This document shows, piece after piece, positions 1-19,425 of a DNA stretch of 54,986 nucleotides. The number at the start of each line of letters is the position of its first letter. Positions within the stretch are counted from its first letter, which is position 1. The notes below the pieces were generated by a model. That model was not told the DNA's origin, ran no database searches, and worked only from the letters and a program-made list of their open reading frames with translations. Origin of the DNA: Pseudomonadota bacterium. Its GTDB lineage: Bacteria > Pseudomonadota > Gammaproteobacteria > Acidiferrobacterales > Acidiferrobacteraceae. The position numbers were made by a program, and so were the translations under genes. The stretch lies in assembly GCA_021777335.1 (NCBI GenBank), contig JAJYDT010000009.1, forward strand, positions 1 through 54,986, given 5' to 3'.

Positions 1-11
1 ATGGGGATACC

Positions 12-947
12 ATGATTAGAGGTCGGGATGACGGCCTGAAGACCGATACGGCCCGCGCAAGTCCCTTTCTGCTTGGCAACAAGACGCAATATGCGCGTTG
101 GCGTGCGCTCAAGCTTAGCGATTATCCGTCGGGTGCCGAAAAGTTGATCGTTGAGGTACGGGACCCCGCCCAGCCTACGTCAAGCGAGCGCGACGCGCTT
201 CTGCGCATAGTCGGCAAGACCAATATGGTTATCTACCGGGTTACACAACAGACACAGAACAAGCAGTCGGTATGCGCGGTTGCCAAACATTTAGGGTTGG
301 TGCACCTAGTCGATAACCCGTTTGCCGACGAAGATGGCATAACGACACTCAAGGTGGCCCCCGAAAAGGCTGCGCGCGGATATATCCCATTCACGGACAA
401 GCGTCTTTTATGGCATACCGATGGATACTACAATGCGCCCAAGGAACGGATTGGGGCTTTTGTGCTGCATTGTGTGGTTCCAGCCACCCATGGCGGCGAT
501 AACATGCTACTTGATCCGGAAATGGTCTATCTACGGCTGCGTGATGCAAACCCCGACTACGTGCGTGCGTTGATGGAGAAGGATGTGCTGACCATCCCCG
601 CAAATATCGAATCGGGCGTCGAAATACGGCCGGCACGTGTCGGGCCCGTTTTTGCAGTTGACGGGACAACTGGGGCGCTCACGATGCGTTACACCGCAAG
701 GACACGCAGCGCGCACTGGAAACAGGATGAGGCAACAGCCGACGCCGTACGCATGCTGGCGAACCTGATGCGCGATGATGCGCCGGATGTCTTTAACTAT
801 CGTCTTGGCCCGGGCGAGGGTATTGCGTGCAATAACGTGCTCCACAGCCGTTCTGCATTTACCCAGTTAGCGACTGGCCCCTGTCGTACGCTTTACCGCG
901 CGCGTTATTATGAGCGCATTGCGTCCCTACGCGAGGGCCTTATGTGA
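12..947 (+). CDS. TauD/TfdA-family Fe(II)/2-oxoglutarate dioxygenase-like protein
   Basis: 311 residues, in the size range of TauD/TfdA-fold oxygenases. The facial-triad pattern is visible: an HxD pair at H135/D137 (in LLWHTDGYY) and a distal histidine at H278 (in NNVLHSR), followed by arginines near 292-298 that could bind the 2-oxoglutarate carboxylate. Family members hydroxylate small substrates with Fe(II), 2-oxoglutarate and oxygen; no substrate can be read from the sequence. There is no signal peptide, so it is probably cytoplasmic. The start ATG follows a GGGGA at 3-7. The final ATGTGA overlaps the GTG start of the next gene, so the two are translationally coupled. It heads a cluster with a helical protein, a Cas6-like protein and a DsrC-like protein, so a link to sulfur metabolism or RNA is possible but unproven. 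More of the operon may lie upstream, outside the window. Confidence 0.85.
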   Translation: MIRGRDDGLKTDTARASPFLLGNKTQYARWRALKLSDYPSGAEKLIVEVRDPAQPTSSERDALLRIVGKTNMVIYRVTQQTQNKQSVCAVAKHLGLVHLVDNPFADEDGITTLKVAPEKAARGYIPFTDKRLLWHTDGYYNAPKERIGAFVLHCVVPATHGGDNMLLDPEMVYLRLRDANPDYVRALMEKDVLTIPANIESGVEIRPARVGPVFAVDGTTGALTMRYTARTRSAHWKQDEATADAVRMLANLMRDDAPDVFNYRLGPGEGIACNNVLHSRSAFTQLATGPCRTLYRARYYERIASLREGLM

Positions 948-1672
948 AAGACATGAAACATATTCCGATTACGGTGCTTAATAGGGATCCCGCTATCGGG
1001 GATGCCGATAGTTCCGAGGATGCAAGGGAGTCGCGACCACTCGTTGAGCGCATCGTTGCCGACACACGTCTTGAGCTTGACCGTTTGACTCCAGGACGCG
1101 ACCCGCTGAGGCGCGGGGAACTCCTGCTGCAGCTTGGACGCGCGCTGTTGCGTCTTGAGGAGATGCCGCAGGCATGGGCCGCAGCTCGAGAGGCCTTTGA
1201 TATCTACGCGGCTGACCGTTCATGGGAAGGGGCGGTACATGCGTGCGACATCCTGTTTCTCTCAGATCAACCCCAGTCGTTGCCGGCTCTTGGCCAGGGT
1301 CTATGGCTCGCTGTTACTTACCCGATTGACCCAGAATTGACAGTCGCGATACTAAAACATGTGGTGGATGAGACACCGCCGGAATCAGACGGTGCGGCGG
1401 TTGCAGCGATCACCGCCTACTACATCGCTGACATGCGCAGCCAGGGAACACAACGTGATGACCTTCTGTTGTATGCAGGGCAGGTGCTTACCACAGTGGC
1501 CCGGCGCCACAGTGCGGTCGATGGTCAGGAGGAATTCGATACGTGGATCAATCGGCTCGAGCTGAATGACCCAGACCGGTTCCTGCCGCGTCTGCGCAAT
1601 GTCATTGATGTGCTAGTACAGGATGACTGGTGGGTGGACCGTGAGCGACTGGCCGCCGAACTACCCGTATAA
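944..1672 (+). CDS. Hypothetical helical-repeat protein of the DsrC/Cas6-like cluster
   Basis: 242 residues with no recognised catalytic motif. It is rich in Leu, Ala, Arg and Glu. The stretch at about 50-130 (RRGELLLQLGRALLRLEE, then QAWAAAREAFDIYAAD) has the two-helix spacing of a TPR-like repeat, so a scaffold or adaptor role is likely. No transmembrane segment or signal peptide is seen. The GTG start at 944 overlaps the preceding TGA by 4 bases; an in-frame ATG at 953 is the alternative. It ends 3 bases before the Cas6-like gene, so the three genes form one transcription unit. Function is unknown; the operon position is the only clue. Confidence 0.7.
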   Translation: MKDMKHIPITVLNRDPAIGDADSSEDARESRPLVERIVADTRLELDRLTPGRDPLRRGELLLQLGRALLRLEEMPQAWAAAREAFDIYAADRSWEGAVHACDILFLSDQPQSLPALGQGLWLAVTYPIDPELTVAILKHVVDETPPESDGAAVAAITAYYIADMRSQGTQRDDLLLYAGQVLTTVARRHSAVDGQEEFDTWINRLELNDPDRFLPRLRNVIDVLVQDDWWVDRERLAAELPV

Positions 1673-1675
1673 GCC

Positions 1676-2356
1676 ATGTATTGGAAAGACACCTCTACGC
1701 AGGAGTTCACCGTTCCCCCTGATGTGGTGGATCTCGTGTTTGATATCTCCTGCCGGGCACTGCCTCCAGACCACGCCTACGATCTGTGGCAGACGCTCCA
1801 AGCCTCGTTACCTTGGTTTGCGGAAGAACCGTATGTCGGGATCCACCCGATACACGGGGCAGAGTCCGGAAACGGCTGGGTGCGTCCAGATGGCCCACAG
1901 GCGCTGCTCTATCTGTCACGCCGCACGAAATTGGTGTTGCGGATACCGAGCCGTCGTACCAGCGATGCGGGCATGCTCAGCGGGCGCACGCTCGAGATTG
2001 GGGCCTATCGGATCAGCATCGGTGGTCACACTGCGCGTGCACTTAATCCACTAAGCACCATTTTTGCGCGACACGTTGCGACTGGGTCGGGTGATGATGA
2101 AAGCATTTTTTTGCGTCAGTGTATGGGCGAGCTAGAGGGAATCGGTGTTGCACCGAGAAAGATGCTGTGTGGACGTGAAACGCGCATCACTACGCCTAAT
2201 GGCGGGGTGCGCACACGCAGCCTCATGCTCGCCGAACTCACACCCGCAGAATCGATACAACTGCAGCTGCGCGGCCTCGGGCCGTGGCGGCAACTTGGTT
2301 GCGGCCTATTCATCGGCCATAAAGACATTAAACCGGTAAAGCCGACCATGGAATAA
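1676..2356 (+). CDS. Cas6/Cmx6-like RAMP protein without a CRISPR array
   Basis: 226 residues. The C-terminus has a Cas6-type glycine-rich loop, GLGPWRQLGCGLFIGHK at 200-216. The N-terminal layout (LPPDH at 29-33, LPWF near 45-48, VGIHPIHG at 54-61) resembles the Cas6 family of the MYXAN CRISPR subtype (Cmx6), as I recall it. Cas6 proteins are ferredoxin-fold RNA endonucleases that cut repeat RNA, often with an N-terminal catalytic histidine; H33, H57 and H60 are candidates. No other cas gene and no repeat array occur in the window. The gene sits between a helical-repeat gene (3-base gap) and a DsrC-like gene (67-base gap), so it has probably been adopted for another RNA-binding or RNA-processing role. 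The ATG start follows the upstream TAA within 4 bases. Fold assignment is fairly secure, function is not. Confidence 0.75.
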   Translation: MYWKDTSTQEFTVPPDVVDLVFDISCRALPPDHAYDLWQTLQASLPWFAEEPYVGIHPIHGAESGNGWVRPDGPQALLYLSRRTKLVLRIPSRRTSDAGMLSGRTLEIGAYRISIGGHTARALNPLSTIFARHVATGSGDDESIFLRQCMGELEGIGVAPRKMLCGRETRITTPNGGVRTRSLMLAELTPAESIQLQLRGLGPWRQLGCGLFIGHKDIKPVKPTME

Positions 2357-2423
2357 TGTGATCGAAACTCTTTGAGTCAACACCACACTTTGGGGCAATT
2401 TAAGACAATTTAAGGAGAACAGT

Positions 2424-2765
2424 ATGGGCTATCACGTCAACGGCACAGAGCTGGATGCAACAGCCACTGGATATCTGGTTAATCAGGACGAGTGGAGCAA
2501 GGAGGTAGCAAATGAGATCGCGCGCCAGGAGGGCCTTGTCCTAACTCAGGATCATTGGGATGTGATCGAATATCTGCGCGACCAGTATTTCAACCATAAC
2601 GGCGAGCTCCCGAACAACCGCCACATCCTGAAAGGGATGCAGGACATCTGGAGCGACCGCAAGGTGGATAATAAGACCCTATTCGACTTGTTTCCAGGCA
2701 ACCCGTCGAAACAGGCGGGGCGAATCGCGGGCTTGCCGGAGAGTATGCGCAAGGGTGGTTATTGA
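2424..2765 (+). CDS. DsrC/TusE-family protein lacking all cysteines
   Basis: 113 residues, the usual length for DsrC/TusE. Family marks are present: a hydrophobic-acidic start, DEWSKEVANEIARQEG at 23-38, LTQDHWDVIEYLRDQY at 40-55, and a C-terminal part ending in KQAGRIAGLPES. DsrC and TusE carry sulfur as persulfide or trisulfide on a conserved penultimate cysteine (and, in DsrC, a second one about ten residues earlier). Here the C-terminal arm reads GLPESMRKGGY and the protein contains no cysteine at all, so it cannot carry sulfur in the known way. A regulatory or partner-binding role, as proposed for DsrC paralogues that lack cysteines, is more likely. The start has a good Shine-Dalgarno (AAGGAG, 2412-2417). 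It follows the Cas6-like gene in the same direction. Confidence 0.85.
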   Translation: MGYHVNGTELDATATGYLVNQDEWSKEVANEIARQEGLVLTQDHWDVIEYLRDQYFNHNGELPNNRHILKGMQDIWSDRKVDNKTLFDLFPGNPSKQAGRIAGLPESMRKGGY

Positions 2766-2801
2766 CAAAAACGGGTGCGCAACCTGTGGCTTTGGTTCGT
2801 T

Positions 2802-2829
2802 ATAACAAATACTCCCTTTACAATATAAT
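2802..2829 (+). promoter_or_regulatory. Candidate sigma-70 promoter for the DUF4282 gene
   Basis: A perfect -10 hexamer TATAAT lies at 2824-2829. ATAACA at 2802-2807 (4 of 6 to TTGACA) is placed 16 bases upstream. The region is much more AT-rich than its surroundings and sits between the DsrC-like stop (2765) and the DUF4282 start (2910), giving a leader of roughly 70 bases. Assigned by eye only. Confidence 0.45.
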
Positions 2830-2909
2830 AACCTCATAGAAGGCTCGGTGCCTGCATGGGCAGGGATCTGCCTGTGCGGGCCGACGCTGGACACACACAG
2901 GGGAGAATC

Positions 2910-3203
2910 ATGCCACCGTTCATTGCTGCCTTGCTTGACCTTTCGTTCGACACCTTTATCACACCGAAGATTGCCACTGGGATCTACATCATCGAGATAG
3001 TCATCAGCGTGATTGGCTGGATCACGTTTGGCCTCAAGGGTTTTGTGGGGGGATTTTTCCATGGGGTCTTCGATCTGCTTATCGTCGCGCCAATCAGCTT
3101 TCTCTTGACGCTCGTGCTGTTACGGATCGGATTGGAGTTACTGATGGCAATATTCAAGATTGCTGAGTACACAAAACAGATCGCGGATGGCGGGGTGCGG
3201 TAG
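2910..3203 (+). CDS. DUF4282-like small integral membrane protein
   Basis: 97 residues from ATG 2910, which has GGGGAG at 2900-2905 as ribosome binding site; the longer frame from 2856 lacks one. Two hydrophobic segments (about 20-50 and 55-82) are joined by a short turn, as in DUF4282 inner-membrane proteins of unknown function. The C-terminal tail (KIAEYTKQIADGGVR) is hydrophilic and probably cytoplasmic. It is preceded by its own likely promoter and faces the convergent GGDEF/EAL gene, so it is probably monocistronic. The family call rests on topology and residue pattern. Confidence 0.65.
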   Translation: MPPFIAALLDLSFDTFITPKIATGIYIIEIVISVIGWITFGLKGFVGGFFHGVFDLLIVAPISFLLTLVLLRIGLELLMAIFKIAEYTKQIADGGVR

Positions 3204-3273
3204 GACCAGGCTTCACACGTGCCCGAATGGCCTGGATTGCCGCAGTGGCAACTGCGGGGGCTGACCACTGGCT

Positions 3274-3303
3274 TTGGTGCCTCGCTCTCGAGAGCAGCAC
3301 CAA
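3274..3303. terminator. Hairpin between convergent genes
   Basis: Arms TTGGTGC (3274-3280) and GCACCAA (3297-3303) enclose a second pair GCTCTC/GAGAGC (3284-3295), giving a long imperfect stem. It lies between the stops of the DUF4282 gene (3203) and the GGDEF/EAL gene (3345). There is no T-run on either side, so intrinsic termination is uncertain. Confidence 0.35.
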
Positions 3304-3344
3304 GAAACTCGGCAGTGCGTGCTGTTGAGGGTGTGTTCTATGCG

Positions 3345-5918
3345 CTACGGAATCGGCTCCGGTATGTGGATCGCGAATCCCTGGACATAGTCGACACCGA
3401 TCGTCTGCAGCACCGAGAGCGCCTTCTTGTCGTCGACAAACTCAGCTACTGTCATGAGCCCCATGTCGTGTGCCACCTGGTTGATTGACCGCACGATCGC
3501 GTGGGCGATCGGGTCCGTTACCAAGTCCTTGATAAACGACCCGTCGATCTTGATCGAGTCAATTGCAAGATTGCGAAGGTAGGTAAAGGAGCTCAGGCCG
3601 CTCCCAAAATCGTCGAGCGAAAAACGACAACCCTTGCCTCTCAGTTGAGCAATAAAATGCTGGGCACGGGGGAAATTAGTTATTGCTGCGGTTTCTGTGA
3701 TCTCAAAGCGGATGCGGTGGACGTGTGCTGTTTTCAGGTGTTCAAGCACAAAGTCGAGAAAGAAATCGTCATTGAGGCTGGTCCCCGAGATGTTAACCGC
3801 ATACTGGTTATGGTGGTCTGCGAGCGTCGCGGTGCTGTCGAGATGGCGCAGGAGTGTCCGAATAACCCATCGGTCGAGGTTCGGCATAATGCCATAGCGC
3901 TCAACGGACGGTATGAATACCGAAGGCTTGATAACCTCTCCATTTTCCCGTACGAGTCGCATCAGTACTTCGTACTCCACAGTTGCCCCGTCCCGAGTCG
4001 AGACAATCTTTTGCCGGTATAGCTGCAGCCGGTTGTGCTCAAGCGCCTCGGTGACCTCATTGACCCAGTTCATGCCCTCACGGTAACGAGATACTGCCTG
4101 GTCACTTGGTGTATAGATGCAGACACGGTTGCGTCCCTGCTCCTTGGCGAGATAGCACGCGCTATCGGCAGCCGACATCACGCTCGCTGCGTCGGCCATG
4201 TTGCTGTCGAGGACCACGAGACCAAGACTTGCTGACAGAACAAAGATCTTTTCCTGCCATATGAACCGGTGGCTACGGATTGCATGCAGTAGATTGTCGG
4301 CCACCATTTGGCCACGGGTCAGGTCGCATCGGTGCAGCAGTACAGAAAATTCGTCTCCGCCGAGACGGGCGACCACATCAGTGGTGCGCACATGCATGCC
4401 GAGAATCTTGGAAAGCTGGCGCAGTAGGTCATCGCCAGCCGCGTGGCCGCATGAGTCGTTGATAACCTTGAGCTGGTCGAGATCGAGATAGATCAAGATA
4501 TGGCGTACATCCCCACTGATCGAACGGCAGGCACGGTCAAGTGCATCCTCGAGCGTCTGCCGGTTTGGCAACCCAGTCAGATAGTCGTGGCGGGCTTGGT
4601 GTATGAGCGCGTCGGTCAGGCGGTGCCGGTCGGTGACATCATGGAATACGAGCACCGCGCCAAAAATCTGCTTTTCGAGATTACGGATGGGGGCCGCCGA
4701 GTGTTCGACAACGTACTCTGTCCCGTGTTTCGCAACCAGAATCACCCGGGTCAATTCGACGACTTCTCCCCTGCCAAGGGCGCGCGACACAAGATCCGGC
4801 GCCGGCATGCGGGTTGCCTCATCAATTGTGCGGAAAACTTGGGACAAGGGTGCTCCGAGTGCTTCGCGTTGTTGATACCCCGTGAGATGTTCGGCAACCG
4901 CGTTTATGGACGTAATTCGGCCAGAAACATCCGTGATGATGACCGCGTCGGCGATAGATTGAAGGGTAGTCTCAGCAAGCTCCTTCTCGCGTGCCAGCGC
5001 CTGGGCGGCTGATTCACGTTCGGTTTGCCACAGCCGCTGGCGCAGGATCGTACGGCGATGAATCCAAGCAGTGGCGGAGATCGACACGACAAGAAAGGCG
5101 AACAGGATACGCGTATCCCGCCACCAGATTGACCACAACACAGGAGCATGAGTGAAGGCAAGGGTAGTCAACGGGAAGTCGGCGAGTGGCTGACGAGCGA
5201 CCAGGAGTCGGTCAGTATGGGTCGAGGGTCCGAGAGCAGTGCTGAGGATCAGCATTGTAGAGATTCCATGCGTAATCACAGTGCCATAGCCCCTGGCGCT
5301 TAATCCCGGTAGGGATGATAAAGTCGCAACCGAGAATCGCGGATGATGCCCGGAGCCAATAGCGCTGCGCATAGGAACCACCCAACCCCCGGTCGCGGCA
5401 CTGTAGACAGGTGCGGCGATTGAAAGGCCATGCCCGACGCGTTTCCATAAAACGTGTTGTGGCCAAGCAAAGGTATGGACTGCGGATACAAGGACCGGCT
5501 GTCCTTGTGGGGTTATTAAACGCAAGCCAGGCAACGCATTTTGCGCAGCTGCACGGTTCAGCCAGCGCAGCGTGGTACCCGCTGGCTGCACCGGGGCAAG
5601 ATGATGAGACAGTAGTGTCCCGGCAGTGGCCAATCGCCGCGCAACCGTGCGCAGATCCAGATCAATTGTGTCTGCGCCAAAACGTGCAACGATAACGAGC
5701 CGGGCGTTGGCACTGTGACGCACATGGTACCAACTGTGCACGCCATACCATACGCCAAATAATACAAGCGCGGAGATCGATAGCCAGCTCGTGATACGCA
5801 ATGGATATTCGAGCGCAGCGGTAAGCGCCCTCGAGGCAGCCGGGATATGTCGAGGCCACGGCAGGCGCTCGAGGAAGGGGGTGCTTCTTGGGGCCGCAGA
5901 TTGCTCAGAGGCCGGCAT
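3345..5918 (-). CDS. Membrane PAS-GGDEF-EAL cyclic-di-GMP signalling protein
   Basis: 857 residues. A transmembrane segment near 43-62 and another near 272-290 bracket a periplasmic sensor region of about 200 residues that I cannot assign to a family. A PAS domain follows (about 310-430), then GGDEF (about 440-600) and EAL (about 615-857). The cyclase signature is intact: RLGGDEF with GGDEF at 520-524. The EAL domain has EVL at 650-652, an ITE motif, DDFGSG and a KIDGSF motif, so most phosphodiesterase metal ligands are present. The loop usually reading AEGVE reads AEFVD here, a mild deviation. The protein therefore could make or degrade cyclic di-GMP. ATG 5918 has only a weak upstream GGAA. 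It is monocistronic and convergent with the DUF4282 gene; an inverted repeat lies 57 bases upstream of its start. Confidence 0.9.
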   Translation of the reverse strand: MPASEQSAAPRSTPFLERLPWPRHIPAASRALTAALEYPLRITSWLSISALVLFGVWYGVHSWYHVRHSANARLVIVARFGADTIDLDLRTVARRLATAGTLLSHHLAPVQPAGTTLRWLNRAAAQNALPGLRLITPQGQPVLVSAVHTFAWPQHVLWKRVGHGLSIAAPVYSAATGGWVVPMRSAIGSGHHPRFSVATLSSLPGLSARGYGTVITHGISTMLILSTALGPSTHTDRLLVARQPLADFPLTTLAFTHAPVLWSIWWRDTRILFAFLVVSISATAWIHRRTILRQRLWQTERESAAQALAREKELAETTLQSIADAVIITDVSGRITSINAVAEHLTGYQQREALGAPLSQVFRTIDEATRMPAPDLVSRALGRGEVVELTRVILVAKHGTEYVVEHSAAPIRNLEKQIFGAVLVFHDVTDRHRLTDALIHQARHDYLTGLPNRQTLEDALDRACRSISGDVRHILIYLDLDQLKVINDSCGHAAGDDLLRQLSKILGMHVRTTDVVARLGGDEFSVLLHRCDLTRGQMVADNLLHAIRSHRFIWQEKIFVLSASLGLVVLDSNMADAASVMSAADSACYLAKEQGRNRVCIYTPSDQAVSRYREGMNWVNEVTEALEHNRLQLYRQKIVSTRDGATVEYEVLMRLVRENGEVIKPSVFIPSVERYGIMPNLDRWVIRTLLRHLDSTATLADHHNQYAVNISGTSLNDDFFLDFVLEHLKTAHVHRIRFEITETAAITNFPRAQHFIAQLRGKGCRFSLDDFGSGLSSFTYLRNLAIDSIKIDGSFIKDLVTDPIAHAIVRSINQVAHDMGLMTVAEFVDDKKALSVLQTIGVDYVQGFAIHIPEPIP

Positions 5919-5974
5919 GGTTTCCGTGAAGTCTTGGCGGTTTCTGGTTTTTTGGCCGTTTTTATGGGCGATCT

Positions 5975-6002
5975 ATCCTGTGCAGTATAGTGAACACAGG
6001 AT
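5975..6002. repeat. 8-bp perfect inverted repeat upstream of the GGDEF/EAL gene
   Basis: ATCCTGTG (5975-5982) and CACAGGAT (5995-6002) are exact reverse complements separated by 12 bases. The element lies in the 273-base region between the divergent starts of the GGDEF/EAL gene (5918) and the DUF2784 gene (6192). The arm spacing suits a dimeric regulator, or the arms could form a leader hairpin. No matching known operator is recognised. Confidence 0.4.
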
Positions 6003-6191
6003 GTTTCGCTATGAAATCTTGGCCATATAAACCTATTTTAAAGAAAATGGTGGTCGTAAAAACAGGACTTGTAGGGTCAGGACGAGGTGTTAGATATTGA
6101 AATCCCAAGATCGATTACGTCGATCGGGAACACGGTGAGTGCCCGTGGGGAAGCATGGCCCAGAAATCGATATGGACGAACTGTGATTAAT

Positions 6192-6578
6192 ATGTCGCGA
6201 ATTTCGCCAATCCTCGCCAATTGTATCCTGATTATCCATGTAGCCTTCATCCTGTTTGTTGTCACCGGTCTGCCGCTTGTATGGATCGGTGTGCCTCGTG
6301 GTTGGCACTGGGTCCGGTCGGTCTGGTTCCGCCGTATCCATCTCGCAGCAATCGTCGCCGTGATGGCGGAAAGTTGGTTTGGTATTGCCTGTCCACTTAC
6401 AACATGGGAGACATATGTGCGTGGCACCTCGGCCCCAGGCCTAGCTGCTGGTTTTATCCCTTATTGGCTGCACCGACTTTTCTTTTACCATTTCCCGCTG
6501 TGGATGTTCGGTCTTTCCTACACCCTGTTCGCGTTTGCAGTCGTGTTTACCTACTGGCGCTACCCGCCGAGACGCTGA
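6192..6578 (+). CDS. DUF2784-family membrane protein
   Basis: 128 residues from ATG 6192; the frame is open from 6087, but the extra 35 residues are polar and unlike a membrane protein. Hydrophobic segments lie near 8-30, 46-64 and 95-120. The conserved look of DUF2784 is present: a leading HVAFILFVVTGLP helix, W-rich loop, WFGIACPLTTWE near 60-70 and a GFIPYWLHRLFFYHF stretch. The function of the family is unknown. The start has no clear Shine-Dalgarno. It converges on nadB with a 30-base gap and no evident terminator. Confidence 0.75.
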   Translation: MSRISPILANCILIIHVAFILFVVTGLPLVWIGVPRGWHWVRSVWFRRIHLAAIVAVMAESWFGIACPLTTWETYVRGTSAPGLAAGFIPYWLHRLFFYHFPLWMFGLSYTLFAFAVVFTYWRYPPRR

Positions 6579-6608
6579 CTCGGAAGAAACGCCGGAGTAT
6601 GCGGCCGA

Positions 6609-8204
6609 TCATGGGGAAAGGACTGTATCTAGGCCAGGTCCAGCCGCTAAATCCGGATAGTCGCGCGAATAATGCAGCCCCCGGCTCTCCTTGCGCGCAA
6701 GTGCCGAGCAGACAATCAATTCCGACACGAGCACAAGGTTGCGCAACTCCAAAAGGTCATTTGATATCCTGAAATTGGAATAGTATTCCCGGATTTCGCC
6801 CATGAGTAGCTGAATCCTGTTATGCGCACGCTCGAGTCGTTTTGTGGTGCGAACGATCCCGACATAATCCCACATAAAGCGTCGGAGTTCTTCCCAGTTG
6901 TGAGCCACGACCACCTGTTCGTCGGCATCCGTGACGCGGCTCTCATCCCATGCAGGGAGCACCAGGGGTGGGTCCGGGAAGGTGCGGACTCGGATATCTT
7001 CCGCGGCCGCCTCGCCGAAAACTAGACATTCAAGAAGAGAATTGCTGGCGAGTCGGTTTCCCCCATGCAGCCCGGTAAACGCGCATTCACCGATCGCGTA
7101 GAGACCCTCCAAGTCGGTGCGTCCGGAGTGGTCAGTGATAATCCCGCCACAGGTGTAGTGCGCTGCGGGAACGACCGGCACTGGCTCGCGTGTAATGTCG
7201 TAGCCGTACTGGCGGCAGCGCTCCTCAATATTGGGGAAATGGCTTCTGATGAAGTCTGCCGGGCGATGGCTGATATCAAGCAGCACGTATTCTAGGCCGC
7301 CCCGCTTCATCTCATAGTCGATGGCGCGCGCGACAATATCCCGCGGTGCAAGCTCAGCGCGCTCATCGTAATTCGACATGAACCGGGTGCCATCCGGCAG
7401 GAGCAGTCTTCCTCCTTCGCCCCGGACCGCCTCTGAGATCAGGAAAGACTTTGCCTTCGGGTGAAACAGACAAGTGGGGTGGAACTGTACGAATTCCATG
7501 TTGGCGACGCGGCATCCCGCACGCCATGCCATGGCGATGCCGTCTCCGGTCGAGGTGTCCGGATTGCTTGTGTAGAGGTACGCCTTGGAAGCGCCACCGG
7601 TTGCCAGTATAAGATGTGTCGACGGGATTCCGATCACCTCGCCGATCGTTTTATCAAGGACATAAATCCCGGCGCAGCGATCCGGTTCATTCTGACCAAG
7701 CTTGCGGTGAGTAATCAGGTCAACGGCGATATGGTGTTCGAGGATCTGGATCCGGGGGTGGTGCCGGACATGTTCCTCAAGTTTCAGTTCGATCGCCCGG
7801 CCGGTGGCATCTGCGGCATGGATCACGCGCCGATGGGTGTGCCCACCCTCGCGCGTGAGGTGGTACATGCTGGCCTTGCCCGTTTCCTCCGGTAAAGTGT
7901 TTTCTGTAAACGGGACCCCCTGTCGCAGCAACCATTCGATACACACCGGGGCTTGACGCACCACGCGCTCCACGGTTTCGCGATGGCACAGCCCCGCGCC
8001 AGCCCGTAATGTGTCTTCAACGTGTGATTCGAACGAATCTGTCTGGTCGAGTACAGCAGCAATGCCCCCTTGGGCATAGAGACTCGACCCCTCGCGGACC
8101 AAGTCCTTGGTAATCAGCACGACATTTGAATGCTCAGCCACCCGGAGTGCCGCTGTCAGGCCGGCGACACCACTACCAACGATCACGACCCTATTCAAAG
8201 TCAC
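6609..8204 (-). CDS. nadB: L-aspartate oxidase
   Basis: 531 residues, the normal length. NadB oxidises L-aspartate to iminoaspartate with FAD, the first step of de novo NAD synthesis; quinolinate synthase NadA then acts. The N-terminus carries the FAD dinucleotide-binding motif [12 protein letters not shown] (about 9-20), and [11 protein letters not shown] and the [19 protein letters not shown] active-site region of the succinate dehydrogenase/NadB flavoprotein family follow. The [18 protein letters not shown] segment is typical of NadB. The start is GTG 8204. nadB divergent from rpoE is a frequent arrangement in Gammaproteobacteria and supports both calls. Confidence 0.97.
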
Positions 8205-8349
8205 TTGGGCGCCACGCCCCCTCGGCCACGGGCGTCACGAGTGCGGTAACGGGTTTTCGGGTATCATGGCAAGCAGCTTTGCTCATGTGCCCGATCATAC
8301 TTATGACAGACCTGGTTCACAAACACGCGGATACGGAAATCGTTTGCGC

Positions 8350-8378
8350 CGAACTTTTTTCACATATTTGGGTCACTA
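8350..8378 (+). promoter_or_regulatory. Candidate sigma-E autoregulatory promoter of rpoE
   Basis: CGAACTT at 8350-8356 matches 6 of 7 positions of the sigma-E -35 (GGAACTT). After 16 bases, TCACTA at 8373-8378 (preceded by GG) resembles the -10 (GGTCnnA/TCTGA type). The transcription start would be near 8385, giving a leader of about 38 bases before the rpoE GTG at 8423. Sigma-E operons are commonly autoregulated from such a site. Confidence 0.5.
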
Positions 8379-8422
8379 CCCCGTGACGCGGCGTCTCTGG
8401 GTGACGAGTTAGAGAGACCCTA

Positions 8423-9004
8423 GTGGCCGAGCGAAGCGTCGATCATGAATTGGTTGTGCGGGTGCAGAAGGGTGACAAAGCGGCCTTCGACCTGCTTGTG
8501 CGTAAATATCAGCACAAGATTGCCAAGCTTGTATCACGTTACGTTTATGACCGCTCTGAGGTTGAAGATGTCACGCAGGAGGCTTTTATCAAGGCGTATC
8601 GGGCCATCAAGGGGTTCCGCGGCGAAAGCGCGTTCTATACTTGGCTTTATCGCATTGCCATAAATAGCGCGAAAAATCATCTAGTAGCGCAAAGTCGGCA
8701 GGTTCCTGGTTCCGACATCGATGCGGAAGAAGCGGAACTTAGCGACGTAAGTGGCGTCTTACGAGAAGTCAATACCCCGGAACATGCGCTACTTACGAGC
8801 GAGATCGCAGATACTGTGCGCACAGCGATTGAGGCGTTGCCCGAGGACCTTCGTACAGCCATTGTGCTGCGTGAAATTGAAGGATTGAGTTACGATGAAA
8901 TTGCTGTGGCAATGGACTGCCCAATCGGGACCGTCCGCTCCCGGATCTTTCGGGCTCGGGAGGCGATCGACCGGGAATTAAAGCCATTGCTAGTCAGAGG
9001 TTGA
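8423..9004 (+). CDS. rpoE: RNA polymerase sigma-E factor (RpoE/AlgU)
   Basis: 193 residues, full length for an ECF sigma factor. Region 2 (FDLLVRKYQHKIAKLVSRYV, EVEDVTQEAFIKAYRAI, FYTWLYRIAINSAKNHL) and region 4 (ALPEDLRTAIVLREIEGLSYDEIA, PIGTVRSRIFRAREAID) are both intact. It directs transcription of envelope-stress genes and is held at the membrane by the anti-sigma factor encoded next. The GTG start gives the family N-terminus (MAERSVD). The stop overlaps a TTG that opens the rseA frame, which suggests coupling. Gene order rpoE-rseA-rseB-degP confirms the assignment. Confidence 0.97.
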   Translation: MAERSVDHELVVRVQKGDKAAFDLLVRKYQHKIAKLVSRYVYDRSEVEDVTQEAFIKAYRAIKGFRGESAFYTWLYRIAINSAKNHLVAQSRQVPGSDIDAEEAELSDVSGVLREVNTPEHALLTSEIADTVRTAIEALPEDLRTAIVLREIEGLSYDEIAVAMDCPIGTVRSRIFRAREAIDRELKPLLVRG

Positions 9005-9009
9005 CGTTG

Positions 9010-9612
9010 ATGAAGGAAAAACTCTCCTTGTTGATGGATGCCGAATTGATGGGGTCTGAGCGAGCCCGTGCTATTAGCGAGGTTGGCGCTGATGCAGATC
9101 TGCGCTCTACCTGGGAACGCTACCATATCATCCGTCTCTCAATGCGCCATGAAATCGACCGGACGTTGCCGGCGGATTTCGCCGACAGGGTTTGCCTACA
9201 ACTCGAGGATCAAGCGGTCCCCGGGGCATCGTGGGCGAGCTGGACAGCTGGACGCGGTGGGTGGGCAGCGCGGTTCGCCATTGCCGCCTCGGTGGCCACA
9301 ATGGTGCTGTTCGGCCTGCGGACACATCATGAGGAGATGCCAAGTGTTGCTCCAGCATTGGTGGCGGCGGCGCGAGAACCAGCGGGTGTTGCGGCGCCAC
9401 TCGGGACGGGAAACAGGATGCAGGAGGCAAGCTTCCGGGCCCATTCGACCCAGGGTTGGGAGCAGCTGAGACCCAAGTGGCAGCGTCGCCTGAACGCCTA
9501 CTTGGTTGAACATAATGAGCTCGCGCCCGAGGCCGGTGGCAGTCTCATGGGGTACGTGCGAATCGTGGGCTACGATCGGACCTCTCCTGTGCCCGCGCCG
9601 GGCAAGAAATGA
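9010..9612 (+). CDS. rseA: Sigma-E anti-sigma factor RseA/MucA
   Basis: 200 residues from ATG 9010; the frame is open from a TTG at 9001 that overlaps the rpoE stop, but MKEKLSLLMDAEL is the expected beginning of the RseA N-terminal sigma-binding domain. That domain covers about 1-70 (with LRSTWERYHIIRLSMRHE). One transmembrane segment lies at about 86-103, and the rest is periplasmic. RseA holds sigma-E inactive until DegS-type and RseP-type proteases cut it. The periplasmic part is poorly conserved, as is usual. It overlaps rseB by 4 bases (ATGA). Confidence 0.9.
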   Translation: MKEKLSLLMDAELMGSERARAISEVGADADLRSTWERYHIIRLSMRHEIDRTLPADFADRVCLQLEDQAVPGASWASWTAGRGGWAARFAIAASVATMVLFGLRTHHEEMPSVAPALVAAAREPAGVAAPLGTGNRMQEASFRAHSTQGWEQLRPKWQRRLNAYLVEHNELAPEAGGSLMGYVRIVGYDRTSPVPAPGKK

Positions 9613-10580
9613 TCGGGGTCGCGCGACAATCGCTGTTTTTGGTTGCTCTTTCTCTTACCCTAGTCTCCGCCGCTGAGGCGGCGATCAGTGCGCCTGGCTG
9701 GCTGATGCGCATGGACCAAGCAGCCAAGCGGGTCAGTTACACTGGCACGTTCGTCTATCAGCATGGAAATCTCCTCGAAACGATGCGAATTTTTCACCGT
9801 GTCGGGGCAGACGGAGTGCGCGAACTGCTTGAATCGCTGAACGGCGTGCGGCGGGAGATTATCCGTGGCCACCGGCAGATCAAATGTTACTTTCCCAATG
9901 AGGACGCGCTGGTTATTGAACGGGCGCGGGTGGTGCACGCAGGTTTTCCAAGCGCGCTGCCGCAGCATCTCAAACAGCTGAGCCGTTACTATGTGTTTCA
10001 CTTGGGAGGCGAGGGCCGCGTCGCCGGTCGTATTGCCCAGATTGTCCTGATCCAGCCGCGCGACGGCTACCGCTACGGGTACCGTCTATGGGCGGACAAG
10101 GCCACGGGGCTCCTGCTGCGGTCCGACCTTGTGGATGAGCATGGAAAAATCATCGAACAGTTCATGTTCACGCAGATCCACCCTAGGACACATATCCCTA
10201 TCTCCGATCTTGAACTGCCACATGATCGGACACGACACTGGCAACGGGAAGCCGCCGAAGTTCCGGCCAGTGGCAGGGCAGGGTGGGTTGCACGCCGTCT
10301 GCCACACGGATTCCATCGCATAGCGTATCTGGTGCGCCAGCAGACCCCAGGTCGCCCGCGCGTACGGCACCTCGTGTATTCTGATGGACTTGCCGCAGTA
10401 TCAGTGTTCATTCAGCGTCTCCCGGCCGGGGATCACTCAGCCATGGTAGGCTTGAGACGGATGGGTGCAGTGCATATGTACGGTAAAGTGGTCGCAGGCC
10501 ACCAGGTGACTGTCATGGGTGAGGTACCCAAGGCGACGGTGGCGCTGATTGGCCGGTCGGTGGTGCAGGAAACACCGTGA
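9609..10580 (+). CDS. rseB: Sigma-E regulatory protein RseB/MucB
   Basis: 323 residues with an N-terminal signal peptide (hydrophobic 7-24, AEA cleavage region), so it is periplasmic. The MucB/RseB core follows: LMRMDQAAKRVSYTGTFVYQHG near 32-53, then DGVRELLESLNGVRREIIR, and a lipid-binding-like beta domain; the smaller C-terminal domain covers about 210-318. RseB binds the periplasmic part of RseA and shields it from proteolysis until mislocalised lipopolysaccharide or lipoproteins are sensed. The start overlaps the rseA stop. No rseC gene follows; the next gene is degP. Confidence 0.93.
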   Translation: MIGVARQSLFLVALSLTLVSAAEAAISAPGWLMRMDQAAKRVSYTGTFVYQHGNLLETMRIFHRVGADGVRELLESLNGVRREIIRGHRQIKCYFPNEDALVIERARVVHAGFPSALPQHLKQLSRYYVFHLGGEGRVAGRIAQIVLIQPRDGYRYGYRLWADKATGLLLRSDLVDEHGKIIEQFMFTQIHPRTHIPISDLELPHDRTRHWQREAAEVPASGRAGWVARRLPHGFHRIAYLVRQQTPGRPRVRHLVYSDGLAAVSVFIQRLPAGDHSAMVGLRRMGAVHMYGKVVAGHQVTVMGEVPKATVALIGRSVVQETP

Positions 10581-10631
10581 CCCCGTAACCAAAAGGTTGT
10601 CATCACAGATCGTTTGCCTAAGAGAGCCCTA

Positions 10632-12020
10632 ATGGAAATGAGAAAAAAGCTGGTGTCATCGCTGTTCGTGCTGTGTTTCGTATGGGTTGCCAAGGTTCAG
10701 GCCGCATCGCTACCGGATTTTGCGAGTCTGGTGCAGAAGTACGGTCCCGCCGTGGTCAATATCAGCACGGTTCAGAAAGCGACAAAGGTGCCGCAATCCT
10801 TCAATGCCCCCGGTTTCCCACTCAACGATCTATTCAAACACTACTTCGGCAATAGCCCTCCTGAGACTATCAATACTCGCTCCCTCGGGTCTGGGTTCAT
10901 CATTTCACCGGATGGCTACATTCTGACCTCGGGTCATGTCGTCGTCCATGCCAAGCAGATCATTGTCAAACTGACCAATCGCCGGGAATTTGTTGCCAAA
11001 CTGATCGGTCTCGATCCGCTGAGCGATGTCGCGTTACTGAAGATCAACGCGACAGGTCTACCGACGGTCAAGATCGGCCATCCGTCAAAACTCAAGGTGG
11101 GACAATGGGTGCTTGCCATCGGGTCGCCTTTTGGTTTCGAGAATTCGGCGACTGAGGGCATTGTCTCGGCCAAGGGACGCAGCCTGCCAAGCGAGAACTA
11201 CGTGCCCTTCATTCAGACAGATGTACCAATTAACCCCGGTAATTCCGGCGGCCCCTTGTTCAACTTGAAAGGCCGGGTGGTCGGTATCAATTCCGAGATA
11301 TACAGCCGCACCGGGGGCTATATGGGGCTGTCGTTTGCCACACCGATCAATCTTGCGATGAAGGTTGCTAACGAGCTGAAGGCAACTGGCCATGTGCAGC
11401 GGGGCTGGATCGGCATCACGATCCAGGATGTGACGCGGCGGCTTGCCGAATCATTTCACATGGTCAAACCGTACGGGGCCTTGGTCTCCGATATCCTGCC
11501 TCACAGTCCGGCATCGACCTCCAAGCTGCGCGTGGCGGACGTGATTGTCAAATACCAAGGTCACACGATCGATACCTCTTCAGCGCTTCCACCCCTGGTC
11601 GGCCTGACCCCGGTTGGAACCCGGGTGAAGCTCGGCGTGCTGCGTGATGGCAAACCCGAGACGGTATGGCTCACGATCGGCCAGCTGCCCCAGGCCCGCG
11701 CGGGCGGTTCGAAACAACACGCTGCGGTGGTTCCACATAATCGCGCCTCACTTGGCTTGGCTGTGAGCAATCTGACCCCAGATGAGCGCATGCAATACGG
11801 TGTGCCGTATGGGGTGCTGGTCGACGGCATCGAGAACGGGTCGGCACTACGAGCAGGCATTGAGCCGGGCGACGTGATTCTGAGGATCGGAAACCAGAAA
11901 GTCATGAACACCCAGAGGTTCAAGGAGATTGTAAAGAAACTGCCGAAGGGGCACCCGATTCCGGTGCTCGTCCATCGGGGTGCCAACTCGCTGTTCCTTG
12001 CGCTGAAGATCAAGAAATAG
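10632..12020 (+). CDS. degP: Periplasmic serine endoprotease DegP/MucD
   Basis: 462 residues from ATG 10632; the frame extends to a TTG at 10614, but AAGAGAG just upstream of 10632 fits as ribosome binding site. A signal peptide (about 1-25, ending VQA-A) sends it to the periplasm. The trypsin-like domain has the triad H102 (TSGHVV), D132 (SDVALLK) and S205 (GNSGGP). Two PDZ domains follow (about 245-340 and 355-460). It degrades or refolds misfolded envelope proteins. The position after rseB matches the mucD arrangement in Pseudomonas. It is separated from rseB by about 50 bases and followed by a strong terminator, so it ends the stress operon. Confidence 0.95.
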   Translation: MEMRKKLVSSLFVLCFVWVAKVQAASLPDFASLVQKYGPAVVNISTVQKATKVPQSFNAPGFPLNDLFKHYFGNSPPETINTRSLGSGFIISPDGYILTSGHVVVHAKQIIVKLTNRREFVAKLIGLDPLSDVALLKINATGLPTVKIGHPSKLKVGQWVLAIGSPFGFENSATEGIVSAKGRSLPSENYVPFIQTDVPINPGNSGGPLFNLKGRVVGINSEIYSRTGGYMGLSFATPINLAMKVANELKATGHVQRGWIGITIQDVTRRLAESFHMVKPYGALVSDILPHSPASTSKLRVADVIVKYQGHTIDTSSALPPLVGLTPVGTRVKLGVLRDGKPETVWLTIGQLPQARAGGSKQHAAVVPHNRASLGLAVSNLTPDERMQYGVPYGVLVDGIENGSALRAGIEPGDVILRIGNQKVMNTQRFKEIVKKLPKGHPIPVLVHRGANSLFLALKIKK

Positions 12021-12044
12021 CGATCCGCCGCCCAACCGGGTGGG

Positions 12045-12081
12045 ATGAAGGCGCCGCTGAGTACGCGGCGCCTTCATTTTT
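12045..12081 (+). terminator. Strong Rho-independent terminator after degP
   Basis: A perfect 13-bp stem (12045-12057 paired with 12065-12077, GC-rich core GGCGCCGC) with a 7-base loop is followed by a T-run ending at 12081. It lies 25 bases after the degP stop and separates the sigma-E operon from lepA. Confidence 0.93.
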
Positions 12082-12146
12082 CATCTACCTGGCGGCGTAA
12101 AAAAGGCGTAGAGTAAACGGCCCGAAGAACGGCATTCGCGGTAGGT

Positions 12147-13955
12147 ATGAGCGACTGGGACCGGACCCGAATCCGAAATTTCTCGATTATCGCTCATATC
12201 GATCATGGCAAGTCGACCTTGGCTGATCGGTTTATCGAGCGCTGTGGCGGCCTCGAGCAGCGTGAAATGGCTGATCAGGTGCTCGATTCGATGGATCTCG
12301 AGCGCGAGCGCGGTATTACGATCAAGGCTCAGAGCGTCGCTCTCGACTACCGAGCCCGGGACGGCCACGTCTACCGGCTAAATCTGATTGACACACCGGG
12401 ACATGTCGATTTCTCGTACGAAGTGTCGCGCTCGCTCACAGCCTGCGAAGGCGCGCTACTCGTGGTAGATGCCTCCCAGGGTGTCCAGGCTCAGAGCGTC
12501 GCGAACTGTTATACGGCATCTGAACTCAACCTCGAAATCGTACCAGTACTAAACAAGATCGACCTGCCGGTAGCGGATCCTGACCGCGTAGCAGCAGAAA
12601 TCGAGGACATCATCGGCATCGGCGCCCGTGATGCAGTGCGCGTAAGCGCCAAGACCGGTGCTGGCATTGATGAGGTCCTTGAGGCAATTGTCGCGCGCAT
12701 CCCCGCTCCTGCTGGTAGCACTGATGCGCCGTTGCAGGCGCTCATCATCGATTCCTGGTTTGACAATTACCTTGGCACCGTCGTGCTACTGCGCGTGGTG
12801 GAGGGTATATTGCGTCCAAAGGACCGGATCCGGATGATGGCTGCAGGGCGGGACTATCTCGCCGAACAGGTGGGCATATTTACGCCCAAGCGCAGCGAAC
12901 GCGAGGCCCTTCGCGCCGGAGATGTCGGGTTCCTCATTGCCGGTATCAAGGATATCAAGGGTGCGCGCGTCGGGGATACCGTGACCCACGCGGACCAACC
13001 AGCGATGATGGCACTCCCCGGTTTCAAGGAGATAAAACCGCGCGTGTTTGCCGGGCTTTACCCGGTCGATTCCGCCGACTACAACGGGTTTCGGGATGCT
13101 CTTGAGAAGCTCAAATTGAATGACGCTTCAATGCAGTTTGAGCCTGAGTCGTCGACGGCGCTTGGGTTTGGATTCCGGTGTGGGTTCCTGGGTATGCTGC
13201 ACTTGGAGATTGTACAGGAGCGCCTTGAGCGTGAGTATGAGCTGAGCTTGATCACGACCGCGCCGACGGTTGTGTACGAGGTGGTAACCGTTCGCGGTGC
13301 AAAGATACAGATCGACAATCCAGCTAAACTACCTGAAGCCGGGCAGATCGCCGAGATTCGGGAGCCTGTGATCCGTGCCAAAATTATGACGCCCCAGGAA
13401 TACGTAGGCTCGATCATGCGGTTGTGCATCGAGAAGCGGGGGGTCCAGAAGGTGATGACCTATCATGGGCGGCAGGTGCTTCTGGTCTTTGAGTTGCCCC
13501 TAAATGAGGTCGTACTTGATTTTTTTGACCGACTTAAGTCAGTGAGCCGCGGGTATGCTTCGCTCGACTATGAGTTTTTGGAATTTCGGCCCGCCGAGCT
13601 CTGCAAATTGGATATACTTATCAACGGGGATCGCGTGGATGCGCTGTCTTCCATAGTGCATCGGGATCAAGGCCAGTACCGTGGGCGGGAACTGGTTCGA
13701 AAGATGCGTGAAATCATCCCCAGGCAAATGTTCGACGTGGCGATCCAAGCCGCGATTGGCTCGCAGGTGATCGCGCGGGAGACGGTTAAGGCCCTCCGCA
13801 AAAACGTCACCGCGAAATGCTACGGTGGGGATATAAGTCGTAAACGTAAGTTACTTGAACGGCAAAAAGAGGGGAAGAAACGCATGAAACAGGTGGGCTC
13901 AGTAGAGATTCCCCAAGAAGCATTTCTCGCAGTTTTAAGGGTGGACGAAAAATAA
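12147..13955 (+). CDS. lepA: Elongation factor 4 (LepA), ribosomal back-translocase GTPase
   Basis: 602 residues, normal length. The GTPase domain begins at once with [16 protein letters not shown] (G1), followed by DxPGH (G3, IDTPGHVDF) and NKID (G4). The EF-G-like domains and the EF4-specific C-terminal domain (about 485-600, with [22 protein letters not shown]) are present. LepA acts on ribosomes and affects initiation and elongation under stress. The ATG start has GGTAGGT directly upstream. It opens the housekeeping operon that runs to acpS and lies just after the degP terminator. lepB follows after one base. Confidence 0.98.
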
Positions 13956-13956
13956 C

Positions 13957-14775
13957 ATGGGATTCGCATTATCGCTGGTGCTGGCGCTCGCGATCACGGG
14001 GCTTATCTGGTCGGTGGATCTTGCTGTGACTGGGCCGATGAGGCGTCGGCGCGCCGAAGCGGCGAAGAGATCAGGCGGCGGTGTTGGCGACGTCGAGCGA
14101 CTGTCTAGGGAGCCGCTGATTGTCGAATACGCGAAATCATTCTTTCCCGTTATCCTGGTCGTGTTACTGCTACGCTCGTTTGTCGTAGAACCGTTCCGGA
14201 TCCCGTCGGGATCCATGATCCCAACACTCCATGTCGGGGATTTTATTCTTGTCGAGAAATTCGCCTATGGACTGAGATTACCAGTACTGAACACGGAGAT
14301 CCTGCATACGGGCAAGCCCCAGCGGGGCGCCGTCGTCGTTTTCCGGTACCCACTCAACCCCTCTGAGGACTTTATCAAGCGCGTGGTCGGTATTCCCGGG
14401 GATCACATCGAATACAAGAATAAACAGCTGTACATCAACGGAAAGCTGATACCACACTATAATGGCCGGCCTTATCTCTACGCCGAGTCGAACGACCACT
14501 ACATTGATGCCAGGGAATACACCGAGAAGCTTGGCAAGGTAAAGCACCACATCATTCTCATCCCTGGCATGTACGCTCCGCCACAGTCCTTTGTAGTACC
14601 GCCACACGAGTATTTCGTCATGGGTGATAATCGCGATCTTAGCAACGACAGCCGCTACTGGGGTTACGTGCCCCAGAAGAATCTCGTAGGCCGCGCATTC
14701 CTGATCTGGTTTAGCTGGGACATCGCGCATGATAAAAGTATCGCGTGGGGGCGAATCGGACGCGTGATTCATTAA
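13957..14775 (+). CDS. lepB: Signal peptidase I
   Basis: 272 residues. Two membrane segments (about 3-20 and 62-76) anchor a periplasmic catalytic domain. The Ser-Lys dyad is visible: S86 in RIPSGSM and K141 in FIKRVVGIPGD. The box E motif (FVMGDNRDLSNDSRYWG) is near 218-235. The enzyme cleaves signal peptides from exported proteins at the outer face of the inner membrane. The gene lies one base after lepA, the standard lepA-lepB pair. 30 bases separate it from the DUF4845 gene. Confidence 0.97.
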   Translation: MGFALSLVLALAITGLIWSVDLAVTGPMRRRRAEAAKRSGGGVGDVERLSREPLIVEYAKSFFPVILVVLLLRSFVVEPFRIPSGSMIPTLHVGDFILVEKFAYGLRLPVLNTEILHTGKPQRGAVVVFRYPLNPSEDFIKRVVGIPGDHIEYKNKQLYINGKLIPHYNGRPYLYAESNDHYIDAREYTEKLGKVKHHIILIPGMYAPPQSFVVPPHEYFVMGDNRDLSNDSRYWGYVPQKNLVGRAFLIWFSWDIAHDKSIAWGRIGRVIH

Positions 14776-14805
14776 TCCCGGCGGGACCGGGATGGAGGAA
14801 ACAAC

Positions 14806-15183
14806 ATGTTCAATAGGGGCAACCAGACAGGCATGACGCTATTTGGCATGACTCTGGTCGTATTTGTCATCGTGTTCTTTACGCTGCTCGGTCTTAAGCT
14901 GTTACCGGCCTACCTTAACAATTTCAAGGTGAATAGCGATCTTGCGAATCTCGTGCACCAACCGAACGCCTCCAGGCTTTCAAGGAGTGAGATCGTCGAT
15001 GGACTCGAACGGCGATTCGAGATTGACGAGGTCAGTTATGTCCATCTTAGCAAGGATCTACACGTTACGCGGATTACTGGTGGCAAGAGAATTTCGATTG
15101 TGTACGAAATCCGTGTGCCGCTAATTTACAATGTCAGCGCCCTTGTCGATTTCAATGACCACGTAGAGGCAGTACATCGTTGA
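14806..15183 (+). CDS. DUF4845-family membrane protein between lepB and rnc
   Basis: 125 residues with one N-terminal transmembrane segment (about 10-33) and a small soluble domain. The pattern GMTLFGMTLVVFVIVFF followed by LKLLPAYLNNFKV is that of DUF4845 proteins, which occur between lepB and rnc in many Gammaproteobacteria and Betaproteobacteria; their role is unknown, though membrane anchoring near the signal peptidase has an obvious appeal. The ribosome binding site is GGAGGA, 8 bases before ATG. The stop TGA overlaps the TTG start of rnc. Confidence 0.88.
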   Translation: MFNRGNQTGMTLFGMTLVVFVIVFFTLLGLKLLPAYLNNFKVNSDLANLVHQPNASRLSRSEIVDGLERRFEIDEVSYVHLSKDLHVTRITGGKRISIVYEIRVPLIYNVSALVDFNDHVEAVHR

Positions 15184-15857
15184 CCGATCGTGACACTGGT
15201 CTTGCCCGGGTGCTCGGGTATGAATTTTCTGATCCTTCGCTGCTCCGCCAAGCACTGACACATCGAAGCGCGGGCCGATACAACAATGAACGCCTCGAAT
15301 TTCTCGGGGACAGCGTGTTGAGCCTCGTAGTCGCACAGGAGCTTTTCGTCCGATACCCCGACCTTCCGGAGGGTGAGCTTAGCCGCTTGCGGTCGCAACT
15401 CGTGTGCGGGGAAGCGCTTACTAGCAGGGCTCGCGTCCTTGGCTTGGGCAATCATCTTGTACTCGGTGAAGGTGAGAACCGCGCAGGCGGCCATGACCGA
15501 GACTCGATCCTCGCTGACGCGCTTGAGGCGGTGTTTGGAGCAGTCTTCAAGGATGGTGGATTCACAGCCGCACAAAAGGTGATTCTGCACGTGTATGCAA
15601 TCCTGTTTTCTGCCCTTGACCCAGGACGGGTGGAGAAGGATCCAAAGACGCGCCTGCAGGAATTTCTTCAGAAGCGTGGCCTGGCCGTCCCCTTGTATGA
15701 AACTATCGAGGTATCTGGCGAATCGCATCGGCTGCGATTCATTGTGGAGTGTCACGTGAGCGGCAGCGCTGAACCTACGCGTGGTGAGGGGACGAGCCGT
15801 CGCCAAGCGGAACAGGACGCCGCGGCGAAGGCCTGTCTTCGTCTCGGTGCTTCCTGA
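15180..15857 (+). CDS. rnc: Ribonuclease III
   Basis: 225 residues. The signature NERLEFLGDSVL lies at 36-47 with catalytic E40 and D44, and the second acidic pair is in DSILADALEAVFGAVF. A double-stranded RNA-binding domain occupies about 155-223 (DPKTRLQEFLQ to AAAKACLRLG). The enzyme cuts double-stranded RNA, including rRNA precursors. The start must be TTG 15180: an in-frame stop lies at 15156-15158 and no ATG or GTG falls between. TTGA overlaps the DUF4845 stop, so translation is coupled. era follows after 5 bases. Confidence 0.97.
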   Translation: MTDRDTGLARVLGYEFSDPSLLRQALTHRSAGRYNNERLEFLGDSVLSLVVAQELFVRYPDLPEGELSRLRSQLVCGEALTSRARVLGLGNHLVLGEGENRAGGHDRDSILADALEAVFGAVFKDGGFTAAQKVILHVYAILFSALDPGRVEKDPKTRLQEFLQKRGLAVPLYETIEVSGESHRLRFIVECHVSGSAEPTRGEGTSRRQAEQDAAAKACLRLGAS

Positions 15858-15862
15858 AGAAG

Positions 15863-18586: not shown

Positions 18587-18588
18587 GC

Positions 18589-18870: not shown

Positions 18871-19013
18871 GTACCCTCCCATCGATAAACCACCATTATA
18901 ACGGAGATTGTGCCCACTGCCAGCGGGTTCCCGGCAAATGCCGCGAGGCGTCGCGGAGGATGAAACATGCTAAACTGAGGGCCATTTCCAACATGATGAG
19001 ATTAGGAGTCATT

Positions 19014-19421: not shown

Positions 19422-19425
19422 TCCT

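Follow-up and report, generated by a model that had tools for sequence, protein, structure and literature searches.

The contig JAJYDT010000009.1 from a gammaproteobacterial genome assembly of the family Acidiferrobacteraceae (GCA_021777335.1), analyzed over its complete length of 54,986 nt and hereafter called the window, begins with a cluster of four genes, the third of which (1676..2356, + strand) encodes a Cas6-like protein of 226 aa. We propose, with a probability of about 0.4, that these four genes constitute an accessory operon of the reverse dissimilatory sulfite reductase (dsr) locus, in which a member of the Cas6 family has been exapted for RNA handling. The linkage of this Cas6-like subfamily to the dsr genes and its freedom from clustered regularly interspaced short palindromic repeats (CRISPR) are well established: in many unrelated sulfur bacteria, the protein is a fixed neighbor of the main sulfur-oxidation genes, whether CRISPR is present or not. 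Because the protein is tied to sulfur genes regardless of CRISPR, its recruitment for RNA handling in sulfur metabolism is suggested.

The search for the Cas6-like protein in 145 related genomes identified it in 61 of them, almost always as a single copy; the gene is absent from the other same-family genomes. Comparison of gene neighborhoods, performed for 40 loci and then for approximately 107 non-redundant loci, revealed a common architecture, in which the reverse dsr operon dsrA-B-E-F-H-C-M-K-L occupies one strand and an accessory operon, divergent from dsrA, encodes a TauD-family oxygenase, a 65-aa protein, a TPR-like protein, the Cas6-like protein, and a DsrC-like protein ending in RKGGY, in this order. 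The arrangement is far beyond chance, as dsrAB is in place in at least 64 of the 82 testable loci, i.e., those with at least 4 kb of sequence on the dsr-facing side; the TauD, 65-aa, and TPR-like proteins are encoded in 62, 69, and 44 of these 82 loci, respectively, and the RKGGY protein is encoded downstream in 72 out of 93 loci. The divergent dsr operon spans order-level relatives, a 1.1-Mb genome, and metagenome-assembled genomes (MAGs) of beta-proteobacteria. A second arrangement was observed in other lineages (loci L193-L196), where dsrA is followed by genes for a DUF6967 protein, the Cas6-like protein, an RKGGY-type protein, another gene, and TauD. The original prediction, made by a model from the window sequence alone, had joined the four genes by their adjacency and had named two findings that would speak against it, a lack of conserved synteny among close relatives and a CRISPR-cas locus just outside the window; order- and class-level relatives keep the cluster, and the neighbor found there is the dsr operon. 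The linkage is stronger than that earlier sequence-only reading could know.

The dsrA gene is present in 58 of the 61 genomes carrying the Cas6-like gene and in 12 of the 84 others (Fisher p 1.8e-24), and Cas1 shows no association (15/61 carriers vs. 22/84 others, p 0.85). These Fisher counts ignore the relatedness of the genomes, and the breadth of families involved (f2 to f94) is a better argument than the counts of co-occurrence. Among 398 genomes sampled evenly across the phylum, 52 of which have dsrA over the cut-off, a PF09559 protein was found in five, namely the source genome and four others, and in all of the latter four the gene is located directly beside dsrA. Moreover, the distances among the Cas6-like proteins track those among the DsrA proteins (Spearman 0.51; the best of 200 permutations gave 0.21), and the signature motif of the Cas6-like protein was detected in at least 574 relatives within one species-level collection. 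The profile search of the source genome revealed no Cas1, no Cas7/DevR match, and no cas3_core match over the cut-off. In agreement with the earlier statement that no CRISPR array accompanies the Cas6-like gene, there is no direct-repeat family with spacer-like spacing at positions 1-20000 and no CRISPR-like tandem array anywhere in the window. The locus does not look like a type I-MYXAN system either: together with the missing array, the visible neighbors (the TauD, TPR-like, and DsrC-like genes and a DUF4282 gene) include no cas genes, and the left side lies off the contig.

The Cas6-like protein matches PF09559 with 197 bits (cut-off 26.7) and TIGR02807 (cas6_cmx6) with a score of 124.7 (cut-off 98.85); the latter family, matched by all 35 relatives tested, explains the CRISPR label in annotations. 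Its AlphaFold2 model (predicted local distance difference test score, pLDDT, 86) is structurally closest to the Cas6 protein of a type I-B CRISPR-associated transposon (CAST; 8fcj_B, Z 24.6 over 198 residues, root-mean-square deviation 2.3), Foldseek identified 8fcu_B (E 1.5e-15), and other Cas6 proteins are found at Z 8-17, e.g., 5yi6 (16.8) and 3qjj (15.9). As judged from this model, the tandem RRM-like Cas6 fold is genuine and the protein belongs to the Cas6 family of the RAMP superfamily. The Gly-rich loop GLGxxRxLGCGLF at residues 200-212 is intact, with G208 and G210 present in 111/111 relatives and G200 and G202 in 110/111. The candidate catalytic residue H33 at the start of helix 1 is retained in 108/110 relatives, and a second candidate histidine, H57, in 104/110. 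As a comparison set, we used CRISPR-linked PF09559 proteins encoded beside cas3, cas8a1 (and cas5) on cyanobacterial plasmids. Both groups have H33, at the same position, and the Gly-rich loop in common, whereas the insert at residues 62-71, SGNGWxRP (NGWxRP), and the C-terminal H215-K216 (HK) are found only in the dsr-linked proteins. On the phylogenetic tree, 110 dsr-linked proteins are grouped without any CRISPR-linked member (local support of the common node 0.70); their identity is mostly 41-57%, and residues invariant throughout are seen in many families. The Cas6-like protein is a descendant of the Cas6 family that works without CRISPR, and the intact loop and histidine suggest that it has probably retained its activity on RNA. 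Another Cas6 context that is perhaps CRISPR-free was noticed on plasmid pGMOR1 of Gloeobacter morelensis, where a PF09559-type gene (L202:2971-3762) is accompanied by PAPS (3'-phosphoadenosine-5'-phosphosulfate)-reductase-family, cupin-domain, and hypothetical genes; the 6.6 kb shown include no cas gene.

The open reading frame check confirmed all four predicted genes on the + strand, and Pfam and NCBIfam profiles bear out the TauD, Cas6/Cmx6-type, and DsrC assignments. The first and second genes overlap by 4 nt, the second and third are 3 nt apart, and the fourth follows the third after 67 nt. The first gene (12..947, + strand, 311 aa) encodes a TauD/TfdA-family Fe(II)/2-oxoglutarate oxygenase (PF02668, E 2.8e-17) with an intact iron triad and distal arginine (H135, D137, H278, and R296), all of which are invariant in 80/80 relatives. 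It is most probably the known DsrQ, described as the product of a tauD-like gene that is divergent from dsrAB or located upstream of dsr operons (Lenk et al., 2012, as cited in PMC7596348); in the passage of PMC7596348 on this gene, its role as a sulfonate oxygenase is a speculation. The divergent position is seen in the relatives, and in the source genome dsrAB would fall across the contig break. The second gene (944..1672, + strand, GTG start, 242 aa), termed the adaptor in the original prediction, has no accepted Pfam family and no PDB relative by sequence. Its AlphaFold2 model is all-helical (pLDDT 89.7), with TPR proteins as the best structural neighbors at Z 13.3 over 170 residues, a level common for helical repeats, and the fold search gave generic TPR matches only; therefore, only the general class, TPR-like, is safe. 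A Cse2-type small subunit was considered for this protein and rejected (PF09485, E 0.02, 15.7 bits vs. a cut-off of 24.6; weak matches in 3/35 relatives). The 65-aa gene that most relatives carry between the TauD and adaptor genes is missing from the window; its product (e.g., L035:8231-8428) is conserved, has no accepted Pfam family, and is also absent from the beta-proteobacterial Cas6-like loci.

The fourth gene (2424..2765, + strand, 113 aa) encodes a DsrC-like protein by PF04358 (108.7 bits vs. 24.9) and TIGR03342 (97.3 vs. 53.5), and its sequence is free of cysteine, as had been predicted. The tail RKGGY is found in all 86 aligned relatives at the place where DsrC has QAC...GCV. With both cysteines of the arm absent, on which the persulfide-carrying function of DsrC depends, the protein is no persulfide carrier. 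Cysteine-free relatives of DsrC have been called RspA, and the protein may be of this type. Proteins with the RKGGY tail are also encoded on their own in several same-family genomes, away from dsr and with no Cas6-like gene, and the DsrC-like protein is thus not an obligate part of the cluster. The sulfur-linked system of the original prediction is partly supported, as regards the conserved linkage to sulfur-related genes, a Cas6-like protein without a CRISPR partner, and the intact oxygenase triad and Cas6 residues; RNA binding or cleavage, its coupling to the oxygenase, and a sensor role of the DsrC-like protein are putative. Overall, the source genome contains eight DsrC/TusE-family matches with tails such as GCV, RKGGY, and RPRTWSTG, one of them on a suspect contig discussed below.

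The source genome is 97.8% complete and consists of 164 contigs, one of which (C157) is the window; position 1 is the contig end, the cluster lies at this left edge, and its left neighbor is outside the window. Contig C32 carries dsrL-K-M-C-H-F-E and breaks off within dsrB; its proteins are nearer to those of Cas6-carrying loci (82% for DsrK) than to those of Cas6-less genomes from the same family (74%). From these two features we infer that to the left of position 1 the sequence most likely runs on into dsrA-dsrB. The assembly was probably broken at this point by a second, stand-alone type of dsrAB located on contig C62 (L153). Such stand-alone dsrAB pairs, not accompanied by the other dsr genes, are also seen in other genomes of the order (L158-L160). 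A second Cas6 fragment in the source genome, on the 4.1-kb contig C115 (L031), was rejected as probable contamination, as it shows ~95% DNA identity to a genome of another family (G034); this contig, probably a MAG contaminant, also carries an RKGGY DsrC-like gene.

The biochemical role that we hypothesize for the Cas6-like protein is as follows. It would bind, and probably cut, a structured RNA, for which the best candidate is the polycistronic dsr mRNA at the dsrA-dsrB and dsrC-dsrM intercistronic hairpins, and cutting there would set the ratio of the dsr transcripts. In Allochromatium vinosum, the dsrEFH and dsrC transcripts are more abundant than dsrA (PMC3397948). The TPR-like protein would be a scaffold joining the Cas6-like protein to a partner, and a metabolic or protein signal would come from DsrQ and the DsrC-like protein without cysteines. 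The dsrC-dsrM and dsrA-dsrB stretches fold better than shuffled sequences (mean z -2.5 and -2.0, respectively), and the choice of dsr mRNA as the target is tentative; the adaptor and signal roles of the partner proteins are more doubtful. The proposal in its fullest form, an endoribonuclease of the Cas6 family permanently moved from CRISPR immunity to central energy metabolism that would process dsr mRNA or a dsr-controlling RNA and be tuned by the oxygenase and a cysteine-free DsrC decoy across sulfur-oxidizing Gammaproteobacteria, is likewise put forward with much reserve. The hairpins in these two intercistronic stretches are very stable in many loci and may be sites at which the dsr transcript is processed or attenuated. 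As a Cas6-specific feature they were rejected, since they also occur in some Cas6-less dsr operons and are confounded by phylogeny; a consistent dsrA-leader hairpin, placed at a fixed distance from the start codon, was rejected as well (mean z at most -0.7 in size).

Several observations weigh against RNA handling in the dsr locus. The dsrAB genes are not in place in 18 of the 82 loci, and in some genomes the Cas6-like gene is located away from dsr or lacks TauD. H57 is absent from a few relatives, and the protein of locus L196 lacks both histidines. The intercistronic hairpins share no common sequence across lineages and also occur without the Cas6-like gene, and no hairpin in the 67-nt intergenic stretch before the DsrC-like gene (2357..2423, + strand) is conserved in the relatives. 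The predicted RNA role draws on candidate targets, and the dsr neighbor in the source genome has been placed across a contig gap.

Alternatively, the Cas6 fold may have been reused as a protein scaffold without RNA handling, which would cooperate with its operon partners (the TPR-like protein, DsrQ, and the cysteine-free DsrC-like protein) in the assembly or protection of DsrAB, for instance during cofactor insertion or as a placeholder in the DsrC groove. The genes accompany dsrAB rather than any RNA element, the NGWxRP insert and the C-terminal HK are conserved as well as the residues of the RNA loop, the DsrC-like arm is in register with both cysteines lost, and in four genomes that lack the Cas6-like gene, TauD and the 65-aa protein are still found next to dsrAB. 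However, the Gly-rich RNA loop and the candidate catalytic histidine, both retained almost without exception, would be superfluous in a protein serving purely as a scaffold, and we consider this explanation unlikely. Another possibility is that the Cas6-like protein acts on a different RNA, such as a tRNA or small RNA, with a DsrC/TusE-like partner as in tRNA thiolation; TusE, a relative of DsrC, has an established role in tRNA 2-thiouridine formation (cited in PMC3368242), and the Cas6-like gene is kept away from dsr in contigs of Marithrix, Thiomargarita, and Parabeggiatoa. This is decidedly less probable, as the statistical link is to dsrA and neither the window nor seven related loci gave an Rfam match.

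The third alternative is mainly a transcriptional switch with the Cas6-like protein as a bystander. The dsrA-TauD region of the relatives (e.g., L045, L141, L155, and L157), which is absent from the window, contains the palindrome TATCCC-N4-GGGATA, followed by CACCCCAnnRGKAGGGT and then by a TAGACT box located 71-75 nt from the palindrome start in most loci. A regulator, perhaps the DsrC-like protein, would bind this palindrome upstream of dsrA. DsrC of A. vinosum reportedly binds DNA, according to a study of dsr regulation. In the palindrome, 94.6% of cells pair, with no covariation above shuffles, and it is also found before dsrA in Cas6-less genomes (L155 and L157). The palindrome resembles a Cas6 hairpin; since the sequence is conserved without covariation and persists without Cas6, it was rejected as a hairpin substrate of Cas6 and is more likely a DNA operator, the simpler reading, which together with the box makes up a candidate dsr operator and promoter. 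Its retention where Cas6 is lacking, however, disconnects the palindrome from the cluster, and the binding protein is putative, which makes the switch quite improbable as the explanation of the four genes. Finally, a functionless CRISPR-cas leftover or chance insertion, as the type I-MYXAN Cas6 label given by annotation pipelines might suggest, is contradicted by the sequence conservation across many families, the nearly constant single copy, the fixed position beside dsrA, and the lack of a link to Cas1, and can be practically dismissed.

The Cas6-like gene bears a CRISPR label in hundreds of genomes and is thus misread in surveys of CRISPR as well as of sulfur metabolism. If dsr RNA is indeed handled by this protein, a well-studied pathway would turn out to have an unrecognized layer of control, and the protein would be a plain example of how metabolism can domesticate a Cas protein. 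The proposal is directly testable, as partner genes are conserved and some hosts can be cultivated, among them Thioalkalivibrio sulfidiphilus, whose strain ALJ17 carries the locus (L128). Full-text searching of the open-access literature revealed no publication linking this Cas6 to dsr genes.

Among known systems, dsrQ of PMC7596348 belongs to the same family as the first gene and has the same divergent position in the relatives, whereas the dsrQ passage of that paper is silent on the Cas6-like gene and on the TPR-like, 65-aa, and cysteine-free DsrC-like proteins. The DsrC protein of A. vinosum and the TusE family (PF04358, TIGR03342) share with the fourth gene product the profile family and a C-terminal arm in register; in contrast, the arm in the window ends in RKGGY and lacks the cysteines. 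The Cas6 proteins of type I-B CASTs (PDB 8fcj and 8fcu) and the Cas6/Cmx6 proteins of type I-MYXAN resemble the Cas6-like protein in the whole fold and the Gly-rich loop, and H33 is as in the plasmid CRISPR Cas6 proteins, which mostly have other residues in place of H57; here, however, an array and cas partners are replaced by dsr neighbors, and the NGWxRP insert and the C-terminal HK are added. As in the exapted or defective CRISPR-Cas variants reviewed in PMC6452270, a Cas component is found outside immunity; those variants keep effector modules, whereas the dsr-linked protein is a lone member of the Cas6 family fixed in a metabolic locus.

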